A DNA stretch of 64,000 bases, taken from contig JABYQQ010000002.1 of NCBI GenBank assembly GCA_022605405.1, positions 186,001 through 250,000 of the forward strand, in the 5' to 3' direction. Below the pieces are notes generated by a model that saw only the letters and a list, made by a program, of their open reading frames with translations, had not been told where the DNA came from and ran no database searches. Positions within the stretch are counted from its first letter, which is position 1, and each line of letters begins with the position of its first letter. Origin of the DNA: Earliella scabrosa (taxonomy: Eukaryota; Basidiomycota; Agaricomycetes; Polyporales; Polyporaceae). Positions 5,806 through 40,413 of the stretch are shown piece after piece. The position numbers and the translations under genes are program-made.

Positions 5806-5878
5806 GCCGGGATAGCTCAGCTGGGAGAGCAACAGACTGAAGTTCTGGAGGTCGCGTGTTCAATCCACGCTCCTGGCA
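5806..5878 (+). tRNA. tRNA-Phe (anticodon GAA)
   Basis: 73-nt cloverleaf without intron. Acceptor GCCGGGA pairs with TCCTGGC with one G-U; D arm GCTC/GAGC; anticodon loop CTGAAGT gives GAA; T arm GCGTG-TTCAATC-CACGC; discriminator A. One mismatch closes the anticodon stem. A TTTTT Pol III stop follows near 5903. The same gene occurs at 20156-20228 (minus) and 24833-24905 (plus). Confidence 0.95.
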
Positions 5879-19414: not shown

Positions 19415-20155
19415 GGGAACTGGTTTGGATTCGAGGTGTGCAAGGGCCAGGGCGCGTGGGCGGGGAGGTGCGGTAAAGGTGCGGCGTGACCCTGACTTAT
19501 GAGTCACGGCCAAAGGAAAGCGCGAGAGGTCGCTGGATTTGAAGCACAATGGCGACGAGCCACAAAGGCGACAAAGGACGGTGGTCGTCCAAAGCCAACA
19601 GCTAAGCGCGGTGTTCGTGTCCAACGCGCCATGCCATATTGGGACGCAACACGAGGCTCGCTTGTTCATCCAAGCGCCCGGGCTCCAGCACCTCCGTCCG
19701 CAAGCTCTGCCTGTTATACGACAAATTCATTCATCTTGTGTACTAAGTGCGCCATTTTGTATCCGTTTGGCCTACTGCTACAGAGTATACATACTGTGGT
19801 ACGAGATGTCGTAGCGCACTATGAAAGCAGCTTGATGAAGTGGTTAGAACTGGCACAGCCACCTCGCCAGTCGTCCATGGGCCCCCGGCCATGACATGAC
19901 GACGGCAACCCGGGCGGAGCACCGCGGCGCACTAGCTGTGGCAGACCTGGATACCATCGATCTCCCTACGGCATGACCGCTTCACTTGGTCCGCGCTCCG
20001 CTCGAGCGGCTTATGCATCTGAACGTGTGTACACCATTGTCCGATAAGTTGTCCACTGCTTCATAAATGTCACAAATCATGAATTTCAAAAACATAGATG
20101 GCATATTGACAATGACAAGAACACCGCAAAAAAGGTCTTCAACAAGTCATGCCAA
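19415..20155. other. No gene supported
   Basis: Region between the FunK1 copy-B promoter and the minus-strand tRNA-Phe. An AT-richer part near 20040-20130 includes the Pol III stop of the tRNA (A run on the plus strand near 20133). Short open frames carry no motif. Confidence 0.5.
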
Positions 20156-20228
20156 TGCCAGGAGCGTGGATTGAACACGCGACCTCCAGAACTTCAGTCT
20201 GTTGCTCTCCCAGCTGAGCTATCCCGGC
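20156..20228 (-). tRNA. tRNA-Phe (anticodon GAA), second copy
   Basis: Identical in its 73 nt to the gene at 5806-5878, on the opposite strand. A T6 stop follows it on the minus strand near 20133. Flanks differ from the other copies. Confidence 0.95.
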
Positions 20229-20312
20229 AACGCAGGTCGTTTCAATGTGCACCATATGGAACACATGGCCATACATCGTTCTGTACCATGAGTAGTACCC
20301 AGAATAGTGTAC

Positions 20313-24832: not shown

Positions 24833-24905
24833 GCCGGGATAGCTCAGCTGGGAGAGCAACAGACTGAAGTTCTGGAGGTCGCGTGTTCAATCCACGCTCC
24901 TGGCA
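24833..24905 (+). tRNA. tRNA-Phe (anticodon GAA), third copy
   Basis: Same 73 nt as the genes at 5806 and 20156. A T5 Pol III stop follows near 24924. It is divergently placed 190 bp from the one-helix protein start at 24643. Confidence 0.95.
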
Positions 24906-30067: not shown

Positions 30068-31417
30068 GACGGGTGGAGGTTAGACGCTGTGGGGCTGGCA
30101 GTAGGGGCAAGATGCGGGGATGCGGGGGACGTGGAGAGCAGTCGTGCCAGTCGTCAAGGCCGTTGCAAAATCGTACGTCGGATGCAAACGAAATGCAAAG
30201 ATAGAGCGGGGAGGAGGGCGCGGAAGCCTGGTTATATAGCGATTCCGCCCGGGGGATGACATCACCGTCAGCGCTTTACGACGTCGTGCACCCCGGTGAG
30301 GCGAGTGGAGAGGCCCGCAGATTCGCACGAGAACATGGACGGCAGCGAGCGTGTCTCTCGCTGCCGTCGGCCGCACGGGTTTGAGATCTGTCGGCGTTTT
30401 CGTCGAGTTTCGTCGTCGGCGATCATCGCAACGGGCGCTTAATACAGGTGCAAGTCCAACCCATGATGGCCAGGCTCGGCGGAACTTGCTGGGATGAACA
30501 TTTCAGTCCTGGCTTATGCCCATGGACCGGAGTTGTTGAGGCGGAAGAGCGGCGAGAACGTTTAGGAAGCCGCAATCGGCGGTTGGGCGACGGAAAGCCT
30601 TCCGAAAGCGTGGTGGTTTGTCAGAACGAGTTACACAAGGACTCCGGATCACTAAGCGAACGAGGATCCTCACAAGCTGAGGCCTGAGGGCTCAGCGCTC
30701 AGGCTGAATCCTCGTCGCCTCGTGGCAGGAGCTGCGCGATTCCCGGCAACGAGATAGAAGACACCGATGCTCCTGGTCCATGCGGTCAACCTGTAGATTG
30801 GGATTCGGGAACGCGGGGAACGATCTTCAGCGGCGGGGATATGAGAGGGCGTGTGGATCTGGTAGCGGGTATTAGATGGATATGCACTGATCTGCGAGAT
30901 GTGATCACGTACAAACCAAGTCATGCCTCGCCTGTCGTAAGAACGGCCCTTCACACATGTAGCGTCGATGGCCAGGAACGGACAAAGATCAACAGTAGAA
31001 CTTGGTGGCAGGGGAAGAGTGCGTGGCAGGCATAGGCAAATGTAGGCGAGGGCAAGGCTAGTCATGAAGAAGAAAACAGGCATCCCCAAGAGATCACTCC
31101 AGCTGCAGTCTCGGAGCAGTGGCTTGTCGGAACTTTTGAGCGTCTATCGGGATGCATCCCGATGGCCTTTTGCATCCGGATGCACTTGCTATCTTCCTAT
31201 CGAGAATATCACGACAATGAGTTGCACCATAAAACTGTAGTATGATACTGTATGACTGCACTATACGACCTACTTGCCAGGAGATGGAGCGTAGCAATGT
31301 CAGGAGGAGGCGAAAGTTGGGCGCTTAATGGCCTTTCCTCCAGATACCCGTGGGAAAGTTCCGACACTGTGTGCGGAAAGAGACCATGAATCAAAAGGTC
31401 TGCGTCCGCCAAAGAGA
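30068..31417. other. Upstream region of the sugar transporter
   Basis: No gene is supported. Near 31146-31161 there is a 16-bp perfect palindrome, TCGGGATGCATCCCGA, followed within 25 bp by another GCATCC-rich stretch; it could bind a dimeric regulator or be chance. Short open frames have no motif. Confidence 0.4.
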
Positions 31418-31489
31418 TGCCCATTGGCTGGATTGAACAACCGACCTCACCATTACGAGTGGCGCGCTCTACCACTGAGCTAAACGGGC
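31418..31489 (-). tRNA. tRNA-Thr (anticodon CGU)
   Basis: 72-nt cloverleaf on the minus strand: acceptor GCCCGTT pairs with AATGGGC; D arm GCTC/GAGC; anticodon stem CGCCA/TGGTG with loop CTCGTAA giving CGT, which reads ACG; T arm GGTTG-TTCAATC-CAGCC; discriminator A. A TTTT stop lies about 20 bp downstream on the minus strand. Identical to 34536-34607. Confidence 0.93.
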
Positions 31490-31600
31490 ATAGAAAACAT
31501 AGGCAGACACAGCGATACACCCGCGTACGGCGAAGAATGAGATGCATACTCTTTTGGAGGTTAAGTATCCTCTACTCTCCGCAACGCACCAGGTACTGCG

Positions 31601-34535: not shown

Positions 34536-34607
34536 TGCCCATTGGCTGGATTGAACAACCGACCTCACCATTACGAGTGGCGCGCTCTACCACTGAGCTA
34601 AACGGGC
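34536..34607 (-). tRNA. tRNA-Thr (anticodon CGU), second copy
   Basis: Identical over 72 nt to 31418-31489, on the same strand 3.1 kb away. The GATGCCC context at the 3' end is shared as well. A TTTTT stop follows on the minus strand near 34515. Confidence 0.93.
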
Positions 34608-34727: not shown

Positions 34728-36281
34728 ATGACGAACGAGAACAACAATCCCCGACGGAGTGGCAGCCCTTGGGCACTTCCGTCCAACACAGGGCCACGCA
34801 TAGGTCGCGTCGGAGCGTGGGGCTCGACGCCATCCTCCAGGTATGCCACTCATACACGCTTGCGCGTACATGGAACGTCCCTGACATCGCTATAGCAGTG
34901 GGAACTCGTCATCCGGAGGCCGACGTATCGCGACTCTTGGGGACGTATCCAGTGCTGGGCCCGCTTCAGGAGGAGGCGGCCACAGCCACCCGCACGGCGA
35001 CGAGGACGATGAGGACGACGAAGGAGCAGGCGACAGGCGAGAGGACTGGTATGCTGGTGGTGAACGGAGGTACGCCCGCATGCATCCCGTCCCTACCGCA
35101 GCCCACATACTTCAAGATACATCGCTGACCCGACGCGTATACAGCGGTCTTTCTGTCCAGAACCCCGACAGGCCGAACGCCGTCCCCGGTGGCAATCTGG
35201 TGCGCGATCTGCTGAGGAGGGCCGCAGAGTACGCTCGCGTCTCGCATCCGGTGCTCTCACACGTCTGATCAGCCGTCATCGTCGTTTTCCGCAGAGCAGG
35301 ACCACCTTCCGAATCTGGCGCCCCTGCACCTAGGAGCCATACGTTCATCGGCGGAGGACATACTCTCGGGAGTGACGAGGTCGAGAGCACGTTCATCCCT
35401 GATCCCAACGCGCAGAACGCAGGTGTGTCTGACCCGTCAATACTCGTCATTTTATGCATGCTGACGTTCGGCAGAGCCCGAGGAGACTGCGATCCGCCAC
35501 CTGACTTTTTGGCGCGACGGTTTCACGGTGGAGGATGGAGAGCTGATGCGGTACGATGACCCTGCAAACGAGCAGATTCTGAACGAGATCAATGCCGGGT
35601 ATGTCCTCAATACTGGATTGCTTGCGGTTCATAACTGATACGTCTTCAGACGCGCGCCGCCGCACATTCTCAACGTCCGAGTCGACCAGCATGTCGAGCT
35701 GCGCGTCGTCAAGCGGCTCGCGGACGACTACGTTCCTCCGAAGCGCAAGGCGTTCTCAGGACAGGGGCAACGCCTGGGCTCTCCCGTGCCCGGCGCGTCG
35801 TCATCTAGCACGGAGCAGACCACACTTCCTGGCTCTTTCCCGACGGGTACGCCTGGAGGTAGCTCGCTGCCCACCCAGCGGTCCGCAGACGACTTTGGGA
35901 CGAGGTTTGAGGTTGATCAGACGAAGCCCACCACGAGCGTCCAGATCAGGCTTGCCGATGGGACGAGGTGAGTAGCACGAGTTTGAGTGCGTGTCCTCGA
36001 TCATGTCTGATCTGGCGTCACGATCAGGATGGTCGCTCGAATGAATTTGACACACACTGTGGGCGACATCCGCAACTTCATCAACGCGTAAGTCGTCCTT
36101 GTACTATCGCCGCCATGTGAAGTACCTCCCGCTGACGGATCCCCTCAGGTCGCGGCCCGAGAACATCTCGCGTGAATACGTGATCATGACCACGTTCCCG
36201 AACAAGACTTTGGAGGACAACGGCCAGACGATCGAAGCAGCCGGGCTCGTCAACAGTGTCGTCGTGCAGCGTTGGGTGTGA
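34728..36281 (+). CDS. SEP-UBX domain protein (p47/Shp1-like Cdc48 cofactor)
   Basis: Adapter that links the AAA ATPase Cdc48/p97 to ubiquitin-dependent processes such as membrane fusion and ER-associated decay (family knowledge). Eight exons, 34728-34840, 34896-35069, 35145-35228, 35295-35422, 35475-35598, 35650-35967, 36028-36087 and 36149-36281, give 377 residues in phase. An N-terminal Gly/Asp-rich linker is followed by a short SHP-like motif, the SEP domain ([20 protein letters not shown]...[19 protein letters not shown]), a Ser/Pro linker, and the UBX domain ([20 protein letters not shown]...[18 protein letters not shown]) that ends the protein. Unlike yeast Shp1 and animal p47, no UBA domain is seen before the SEP domain. 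Either the first exon is missed upstream or this is a UBA-less form. Starts 120 bp from the divergent tRNA-Thr. Confidence 0.9.
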
Positions 36282-36791: not shown

Positions 36792-39700
36792 ATGAACGCG
36801 ATAGCCATGCCCGTTATGCCTATGCCGCCGTCGTCGACGATGCACGCCAGTGTCGGTGCGACCACCGCGGCCAGTGCGAGCGAGACTCAGAACTTGAAGA
36901 TCAGAGAAGACGCGCCCGGGATCACAGCAGCCGCACAGATGGAGGAGTACTGGCCCGAGTTCGTCGGCGGTAAGCGCGTCTGCGCGTCAACGGGGTGCAC
37001 GACGCTGCTTGAGGCGGGCTGGCCGTGGCCGCGGTGCAAGGCCTGTCGGGATGAGCGGAGGCGGTCGGTGAGAGTGGTGAGTGCCGTCGTTGCTGTGGGT
37101 CCGCGTGTATTCCTGATCTCTTCCCATGCACCTCAACCCTATCCAACTCTCTTTCTCAAAACGAAGAACGTACCATGCACATGCTGTTTCGTAACAGCGG
37201 TCTCCATCAGCCTTGCACAAGCCAAGTCGGGCAAGCGGTACCTCTGTCCTGCTTGCCATGAGCGGAACAAGGCGCTCGTCGCTGCGAATGTGCACCTCCC
37301 CTCGCTGCAACAGGCCACTGAAGCGCAAACTGTACCGGTTCATGCTCAGCCTGCCGCGCCATCTGTCCCTCCTGCGCCCCAACATCACAACTCTGCGCCC
37401 TCTGCCAGTGCGTCAGGACATCTTCCATCACAGGCCCCCCAGCCCGCACCGTCCGCCCAGCCGTACGATGTTCTCGTGGCTGCGAGGATGTTCGTCCACC
37501 CCCACCACCAACATCTGCTCCAACGACACGCTGTCCCCGTCACTTCCATTCCAGTGGTGCCCATGCCGGCTTCTGCCATTTTGGCTATCGCGCAGGCATC
37601 GCGACGCCCGTTCGTCGGCCTGCCGCATTACGGTCCACGTGGAGAGATATACGCGGTCAATCCGGTGGATGTTCATGTGTACGGCCCGCAACCCGGTGTC
37701 GTTTCGATCCCACAGGTAGTCGCACCCTCCGTGACGGCACCATCGGTCCCCCTGGCGTCCCAGCAGCCCACAACACAGCTCTCAGGCGCCACAGATCGGA
37801 GGGATTCTCTATTCGTCCCCAAAGTCGGTGCCCCGGAGATCGTTCCGGCGCTGACCAACACTATTGGCTCTGATCCAAGTTCGCAGAACATGCAACACTC
37901 GGCGCCCCTTCAGACGAGCATCAATGCCTCAACGAAAGACTCTAAGGCGGTACCGGAGGTGAGCAATTACGTTCGGTTGCGATGCTCCCAACTAACGACG
38001 GCTCACAGGGCCATACCGGCGCAAACAGTAACGGACAGGCTTCGGAACCCCCGTCAGTGCTCCGCAAGAAGCGCAAGAGGGGATTGCCTCGAAGCAAGCG
38101 CCTCTGCGCCGCGCCTGACTGCGGTCGGCCAATCCCATCTCAATTCCAGGGAACTCTTTGCCCAGGCTGCGGCTTCGATCGCTGGCGAAAGCAACTTCGT
38201 GCGAGTTTCGAGAGCGTGCGCACGGCGATGACCACCGAGAGCGACGCGCAGGTCGATGACAAGGAGAACGAGGCGCCAGTAGCGATGGTGGTGGACGGGC
38301 CTCCAACTTCTCCGGCGCCGACATCGACCTTGCAAACCCACCGCAGAATAGTCAACAGTATCCCGATCAAAGCTCAAGTGACCAAGGTCGCCGAAGTGAA
38401 GACTGAGCCCATTCGCGCATCACAGGCTTCACCAGTCCAACCTACGGATACTCCAGCTCAGCCCACAACACCCGTTTTCGTCCCACCCATGCAACATGCT
38501 GAAGCCGCCGTCTCTAATGTTGTTTCGAACGCCATGGAAGTTGATCCTCAGTCGTCCTCTGATGAGGAACCCTTATCATCCAAGCCTAGGATGATCCAGG
38601 ACGTCTCCTCTGATGACGAGCCGCTTGCTACCAAGCTCAAGGGAGATGTGTCTTCCGATGATGAGCCTCTAGCGACCGCGTACGCCACAGGTGCGGTCTC
38701 TTCTGATGACGAGCCTCTGGCCACCAAACTCTGCGGTTCGATGTCATCTGACGACGAACCCCTCGCTGATGTCGTCAAGCCGAAACCGTCCCCCTCCCCA
38801 TCCAAACCGAGCGCAGCAAGGCTCGTATCAAGTCAAAGCTCCCTGCGGATCGTGATCCCACCCTCGTTACAGCCCCACCCGGTGCAGCCTCCTCCCTTGC
38901 GCATACGTCGCGTTCGTTTGATACTAGGTCCTCGGCCTCCCACCCCGGACTCAGACTCTTCGTCCTCTTCTCGCGAGTCTTCTCCGGAGCGTTCATCGCC
39001 GTCCTCCTCTCGATCCTCGTCGCCGCGGTACAAGAAACGGCGATGGGTCTCCTTGAACTGGGACTCGGACATGTCTGAGCTGACCCCTCTGGAGGATTCG
39101 ACGGACGAGGGCGAGTCTGAGATCGACCCGCCTGAAAGTCCGGTCGAGACTCCTGCCCCCACCCTGATGCCCACCCCCTCATCGTCACTGCCCTCAATCA
39201 CCCCTACGGAGACCAAGCGTCAACCACGTCCTGAGAAGCACCGTTTACAATGCGCGTCCCTGGAGTGCGTGAATCTGCTCCCCCGGTACTGGAACTTCCG
39301 GTTCTGTGACGTCTGCCGATTGCGCAGTCTCCACGCCCGCAGGCAACAGAAGCAGGCCATGAAGGAGGGGAATCGCGCTCTAGACGCATGGGAGGACATC
39401 CCGGTGAGTGGTCTCTCGTGGCTACCTTGAATACGGATACGGGGGCTGATGATACACATTGCCTACAAAGCTTCCCCCTGATGGCGACCTGACGGGTTAT
39501 CGCACGTGCAGTAAGTCGCAGTGCCAGCAACTCGTGCCGCCGGTTGAGCGATACAAGTACAAGAGGTGCCCCCGTTGCCGAGCGTATGGACGCCAGTATC
39601 ATAAGAACGTCCTTCGCGTGGGCAAGCAGGGCTCTTCGGACGCCAATACTGCTCTATCCGAGGCTTCGTATGCAGTCAGCGTTCTGCCAGGCGGCGCGGG

Positions 39701-40413
39701 CGCGCTGGAAGGACAACCGGAGGAGCCTCGCAGCGCTGGGAAAGCAGGCTTCGAGGATAGCGGTAGCGATAAATTGCTAGAACTGGTACGTCCTCCTCGC
39801 CTCCAGTATACTACCGTCCGTGGTATGCTCAAACCCTCGGGTGTCCGCCGCACTGCTTGCAGCCGGCCTTCCAGCACTTCTCTGCGCTCCTGGGTGCGCT
39901 CCGCGCGCGCTTCCAGGACTTCCGGGCGGCGCAGACGCGGTACGTGCAGCTCAGGGCGCTGCAGGGCGCGGAGAGCAAGCCGATGGTGTTCAGCTTCGAC
40001 GGCGAGTACTCGATCGTCGCCGATCCCTCCGGCGGGTCCGTCGACGCGATCGTGAACGGCGCGATCCGGGACATCACGCTCGGACTCGGGCTCGTCTTTT
40101 CGTACGTCGGATATTTCCCTTTGTCTTGTCGCCCGTTGGTGTGATTTAATCGATACCCGACAGGCTCGTTGGTGTTCCGTCGGGGCCCGAGGAGAGCATC
40201 ATCGCGGCGCTGCAGTGCTTGTACACTGCGAAGATCCCGTCCTTGAAGCCAAAGCAGCGCAAGAAAGGCACGGCGTCGGAGCTGAGCCCTAACAAAGCCC
40301 TTGCGCGAGAAGTCGCCATGGCGGGGGAGCTGCAGATCTGCGTCGCGTGGGACCGGAGACACAAGTTCTTCCCCGGGCAGAGGATCATGGTGCGCTTCCG
40401 CCTCGTTGGGTGA
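36792..40413 (+). CDS. Unknown protein with four CxxxxC/CxxC modules and acidic repeats
   Basis: Probable exons: 36792 to about 37076, about 37227-37958, 38009-39403, 39471-39785, 39863-40101 and 40164-40413, roughly 1,050 residues. The first intron is uncertain because the frame stays open through it. Four similar modules of the form C-x4-C-x(12-15)-C-x2-C appear, each followed by a basic stretch: CASTGC...CKAC RDERRR, CAAPDC...CPGC GFDRWRK, CASLEC...CDVC RLRSLHARR and CSKSQC...CPRC RAYGRQYHK. A further CPACHERNK follows the first. Between modules 2 and 3 lies an acidic Ser block with five units like SSDDEPLATKL, then Ser/Arg-rich and Pro-rich linkers. The C-terminal 160 residues (VFSFDGEYSIVAD...RHKFFPGQRIMVRFRLVG) look globular. 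The cysteines probably bind zinc, and the acidic Ser units resemble CK2 sites; nuclear role is a guess. I do not recognise the family. Confidence 0.75.

Follow-up and report, generated by a model that had tools for sequence, protein, structure and literature searches.

RanBP2-type zinc fingers follow the consensus W-x-C-x(2-4)-C-x3-N-x6-C-x2-C and fold as two stacked hairpins round the zinc, without a helix, and those of the FUS type have C-x4-C and C-x2-C pairs. Fingers of the A20 family end in a helix after the last cysteine pair and bind ubiquitin, and GATA fingers (PF00320) have the spacing C-x2-C-x17/18-C-x2-C. Exchange of cysteine for histidine is common among zinc ligands. Several RanBP2-type fingers bind single-stranded RNA (GGU), as stated in PMC6384913. 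We analyzed a 64,000-nucleotide stretch of the Earliella scabrosa genome (the window), for which a sequence-only reading had described a long protein with four repeated zinc-type modules, basic patches, disordered linkers and a globular C-terminus, had recognized no family with this plan and had suggested a chromatin or RNA-binding scaffold of mushrooms. Splicing on the + strand gave one uninterrupted frame, 1091 aa long, which starts at 36792 and ends with the stop codon at 40411-40413; its six exons are separated by introns that are all GT-AG (37077-37166, 37959-38008, 39404-39470, 39786-39862 and 40102-40163). Its features are as follows.

36792..37076, + strand: exon 1, with the start codon, the N-terminus and module 1 (open frame, GT donor at 37077)
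36981..37046, + strand: module 1, C-x4-C-x12-C-x2-C (aa 64-85)
37167..37958, + strand: exon 2, with a fifth module and the first long linker (acceptor picked from relatives)
37176..37256, + strand: fifth module, unlike the others, C-x2-C-x19-C-x2-C (aa 99-125), its pattern seen in 16 of 26 relatives
38009..39403, + strand: exon 3, with modules 2 and 3 and the acidic serine linker
38063..38104, + strand: basic run RKKRKRGLPRSKRL, directly before module 2
38105..38170, + strand: module 2, C-x4-C-x12-C-x2-C (aa 392-413)
38558..38764, + strand: five S-D-D/E-E-P-L (SDDEPL-type) acidic repeats in the linker
39251..39316, + strand: module 3, C-x4-C-x12-C-x2-C (aa 774-795)
39471..39785, + strand: exon 4, with module 4 and a short linker
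39507..39578, + strand: module 4, C-x4-C-x14-C-x2-C (aa 837-860)
39863..40101, + strand: exon 5, first part of the C-terminal alpha/beta domain
40164..40413, + strand: exon 6, with the last part of the C-terminal domain (WDRRHKFFPGQRIMVRFRLVG, 40348-40410) and the stop codon, in the family's best-conserved region

Protein searches, one of which scored those 7,993 candidates with the most shared words, revealed 26 relatives, among them Fomes fomentarius C8Q74DRAFT_126746 and Cristinia sonorae BXZ70DRAFT_698222, and each is named merely hypothetical or uncharacterized. The closest shows 56% identity to the first gene model across aa 770-1071. Four of the 26, from Sparassis, Grifola, Obba and Epithele, were obtained when conserved C-terminal blocks served as the query. 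Twenty-five of the relatives belong to Polyporales genera and one, Cristinia sonorae, to the Agaricales, in line with the suggestion of a mushroom protein; for Obba and Sparassis (Polyporales) and for Cristinia sonorae the order comes from a look-up, and the remaining genera we take to be Polyporales. A word-based search from the Cristinia protein found itself alone, and the lack of further Agaricales relatives may reflect the limit of such searches. The Polyporales relatives and the Cristinia protein share the same plan of modules, long linkers and a C-terminal domain, and differ in the number of recognizable modules: four in 14 relatives, three in 10 and two in 2, counts that come mostly from one order and are not independent. 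Several of the shorter relatives have a late start, perhaps because their gene models are incomplete.

The relatives also guided the gene model. The protein start, MNA, is common to 9 of the 26. The acceptor at 37227, which gave a first model of 1071 aa, was dropped for that at 37167, because the segment opened by the latter is present in relatives; the fifth module falls partly in the stretch that the first model treated as intron. An acceptor at 39875, 12 bases after 39863 and likewise keeping the frame, was set aside because relatives start at the position of 39863 with FQHF or YQHF. A scan of the upstream region for bacterial-type promoters and terminators found nothing, which is uninformative for a fungus. 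The end of the upstream gene (36144-36278, + strand) matches a UBX domain (PF00789, E 1.4e-4). Elsewhere in the window, three frames on the − strand match Pkinase_fungal (PF17667; 13089-14603, 17347-19023 and 46877-48148), and a + strand frame at 31390-32361 matches prefoldin (PF02996). Five tRNAs are predicted (5806-5878, 20155-20229, 24833-24905, 31416-31490 and 34536-34607), three of them tRNA-Phe (gaa) and the other two tRNA-Thr (cgt); the tRNA-Thr at 31416-31490, on the − strand, lies inside the prefoldin stop-to-stop frame, perhaps before its true start.

The window protein has 24 cysteines, of which 16 lie in modules 1-4 and 5 in the fifth module. In 20,000 residue shuffles of this protein the mean was 0.004 modules, at least one module arose in 80 shuffles and two arose in none, and four modules are thus far above chance. 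We collected 92 distinct modules from the window protein and its 26 relatives, which together with five from a second gene, described below, made a set of 97. All four cysteines were invariant in 35 aligned modules taken from the 92, an invariance that is partly selection because all modules were picked by their cysteine pattern. The 14 residues after the last ligand carried a net positive charge in 96 of the 97 modules, with means of 4.9 Lys+Arg and 0.6 Asp+Glu. The repeated modules and basic patches noticed at the outset were therefore borne out, the gaps between the second and third cysteines being 12, 12, 12 and 14 in modules 1-4; the four C-x4-C modules stood at the places given for them, whereas the total of four did not, the C-x2-C-x19-C-x2-C module having been overlooked.

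Conservation was compared with 13 of the first 20 relatives, 7 being left out as short or missing part of the protein. The five modules had an identity per window residue of 0.34-0.47 and the C-terminal domain one of 0.53, as against 0.23 in the N-terminus and, among the linkers, 0.20 and 0.24 for the two long ones and 0.12 for the short one before the C-terminal domain. By this measure, the modules and the C-terminal domain are conserved and the linkers poorly so. AlphaFold models were those of a Fomes relative, plus a Fomes fragment model, and carry no zinc. They show short strands and a helix in each module, the helix being 19-27 residues long in modules 2-4 (27 after module 2) and 7 in module 1. 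The pLDDT was about 84-93 for module 3 and about 83-94 for module 4 in the fragment model, and about 85-89 for the fifth module, which in the Fomes relative forms two strands and helices. Of the 1025 residues modelled for the relative, 616 had a pLDDT below 50, in keeping with disordered linkers; with the poor conservation, this agrees with the disorder that had been proposed.

Short motifs occur within the linkers. The basic run RKKRKRGLPRSKRL is a probable nuclear localization signal, and 20 of the 26 relatives have a basic run at most 60 residues ahead of a module in the first 55% of the protein. The SDDEPL-type repeats number 0-4 copies in the relatives, 11 of which have none. The WDSDMSELTPLEDSTDEGESE motif (window 39059-39121) has eight positions that are invariant across 22 aligned relatives; conserved though modelled as disordered, it is perhaps a short binding motif. 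Within the first linker, a FVHPHH stretch (window 37491-37520) has a like pattern in 20 of the 26 relatives and a PHYGPRGEI stretch (window 37620-37655) in 19 of the 26, the Cristinia protein having PHFNSKGEY.

The C-terminal domain ends in RFRLVG, or nearly so, in most relatives, and searching the E. scabrosa genome with it returned the window gene as the sole match. Against PDB sequences, the C-terminal 160 residues gave a best E of 0.62 and a C-terminal fragment profile a best E of 0.41. The solved fold nearest to this domain is that of Yer067w, a likeness of fold that by itself shows no function. The closest known systems for the domain are Yer067w/Rgi1 and the Mog1/PsbP-like two-layer alpha/beta folds. 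Yer067w was found associated with membranes, according to PMC2887356.

Searches of the E. scabrosa genome with single modules uncovered a second gene with the module, on contig C10 at about 265978-270058 on the − strand (within 264500-271500). It holds five modules across three open frames, which from their order and strand we infer to be one gene: RHCSVKGC..KMCEECR, RFCSIKGC..KMCEPCR, RMCTVSHC..LRCERHR, HVCSIKSC..KMCDLCR and AHCSGKNC..TLCERCR. The fourth ligand is histidine in one of them. A profile of 35 modules of the window family scored the four all-cysteine modules at 35.8, 31.1, 29.7 and 31.5 bits and the histidine module at 15.6, compared with controls of at best 9.7 bits in other frames of the window and the C10 stretch and 10.0 in reversed frames; the window's own four modules score 43-48 bits but belong to the scoring profile. 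Profile-profile comparison of the C10 modules with those of the window family gave a probability of 98.5%. Judged on these scores, the modules of the two genes are homologous, and with five more copies in the C10 gene the module looks like an undescribed finger. The C10 gene has a Pro/Tyr-rich stretch between its modules 4 and 5, and no match to the C-terminal domain of the window gene was found in it. Weak matches on contigs C1, C7 and C20 were left uncounted, there being no cysteine pattern in a stop-free frame; one of them, C20:144132-144233, matched the module 2 query at E 6.6e-4 without the cysteine pattern and is either chance or a decayed copy.

No known family accounted for these modules in the databases searched. 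Pfam returned no family at E ≤ 10 for the whole protein, in either the first 1071-aa or the final 1091-aa model, and nothing over the cut-off for 4 of the 26 relatives and the three C10 frames. When 35 of the 92 modules were scanned singly, 13 families appeared at E ≤ 10, each matched by 1-2 modules, with a best E of 0.0092. The module profile reached at best E 0.031 against PDB sequences, in a 21-position match to an RNA polymerase I subunit. The clear match to a known zinc-finger family that the sequence-only reading had named as contrary evidence thus did not turn up in the Pfam and PDB sequence searches, in agreement with its view that no family with this plan was known. Open-licence literature searches returned nothing on the window protein. 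Searches on the spacing formulas led to one paper, on plant AN1 fingers, in which the formula is a stretch of a longer pattern.

We compared the modules with three finger types using small hand-made profiles, built from 11 known-finger sequences in all. GATA fingers differ in spacing, gave a profile probability of 1% and had no GATA Pfam match in the whole protein or the 35 modules. A possible distant link to GATA is that 1 of the 35 modules matched ADD_DNMT3 (a GATA1-like finger) at E 0.021, and a GATA-1 chain was a weak PDB match of the module profile (E 4.8). The modules resemble zf-A20 (PF01754) in that the Rabex-5 and ZFAND5 fingers show C-x3-C-x11-C-x2-C in alignments. The A20 profile gave 2% (three sequences), the A20 family had no match among the 35 singly scanned modules, and the Pfam A20 model yielded five sub-threshold matches in the E. 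scabrosa genome, none at either module gene.

Our preferred reading, held with about even confidence, is that the window region is one gene, probably encoding a nuclear scaffold with zinc modules that contact nucleic acid, disordered linkers and a partner-binding C-terminal domain. Each C-x4-C-x(12-14)-C-x2-C module would bind one zinc ion, as its conserved cysteines suggest, with short strands predicted on either side of the first cysteine pair and an Arg/Lys-rich helix predicted to begin at the second. These helices would contact RNA or DNA; the long linkers, with their acidic serine repeats, may allow the fingers to reach separate sites and might be phosphorylated, and the conserved C-terminal alpha/beta domain would bind a partner protein. 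Cysteine pairs with one histidine exchange, a basic helix, basic runs and disordered linkers together point to zinc-held helices on a nuclear scaffold, and the proposal of a chromatin or RNA-binding scaffold is plausible from the basic helices and basic runs. Against this reading, acidic proteins or membranes can likewise be bound by basic helices, the modelled helix of module 1 is short and the models are without zinc. The membrane association of Yer067w also counts against it, with the reservation on fold and function given above.

An unlikely but serious alternative is that the modules are protein-binding fingers, whose basic helices hold acidic partners or ubiquitin on a docking platform. 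The A20-family fingers, with their similar spacing, terminal helix and ubiquitin binding, offer a precedent; a helix likewise closes modules 3 and 4, and fingers set far apart on disordered linkers suit docking as much as nucleic-acid binding. The low A20 profile probability and the lack of an A20 Pfam match at either module gene argue against it, and strongly basic helices fit nucleic acid better than docking.

We consider it doubtful, indeed quite improbable, that the modules are a diverged RanBP2-type offshoot binding single-stranded RNA, as several RanBP2-type fingers do. The RanBP2 profile (five sequences) was the best of the three, at 55% in an alignment of 25 columns that pairs all four cysteines, and the modules share C-x4-C and C-x2-C with the FUS type; the likeness thus consists of the four cysteines, the C-x2-C pair and a weak profile match, and C-x4-C and C-x2-C/H are present in all 97 modules by selection. 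By contrast, the hallmarks of the consensus fail: tryptophan two positions before the first cysteine occurs in 3 of the 97 modules, asparagine four positions after the second in none, and a gap of 10 in one, the other 96 having 12 or 14. In the models, modules 2-4 have a long helix past the last pair. Moreover, RanBP2 against the five C10 modules gave a profile probability of 1%, and zf-RanBP (PF00641) was absent from the 13 Pfam families matched at E ≤ 10. The fold matches listed include no RanBP2 structure, an absence that excludes nothing. Because the hallmarks fail and the C10 modules score 1%, the modules may be at most a distant RanBP2 cousin and not a member on these tests. It is very improbable that exons of separate genes have been joined here by mistake or that the gene has decayed: although 12 of the 26 relatives have fewer than four modules, the frame is single and its introns GT-AG, the modules and C-terminal domain are conserved and the linkers are not, and 14 relatives keep all four modules in one protein, itself a prediction, so that on predicted proteins the region is not split into separate genes.

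Returning to the nuclear scaffold that we favour, the window gene belongs to a real, well-formed and unnamed family with a recurring module, ordinary in kind, being a small cysteine finger, and new in detail. Many conserved mushroom genes lack annotation. Tentatively, and as a possibility rather than an expectation, we propose that mushroom-forming fungi have a zinc-finger family not yet described. Its short basic-helix finger would be present 4-5 times per protein in two or more long proteins without any other recognized domain in common, one of them fused to an unnamed C-terminal alpha/beta domain, and the family might form a lineage-specific nucleic-acid-binding toolkit. The recurring finger offers a handle on at least two unannotated genes, through its profile, counts across fungi and single purified modules. 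The development of mushroom fungi is only partly explained by known regulators, to which the fingers would add a lineage-specific class should they recognize a particular RNA or DNA motif.
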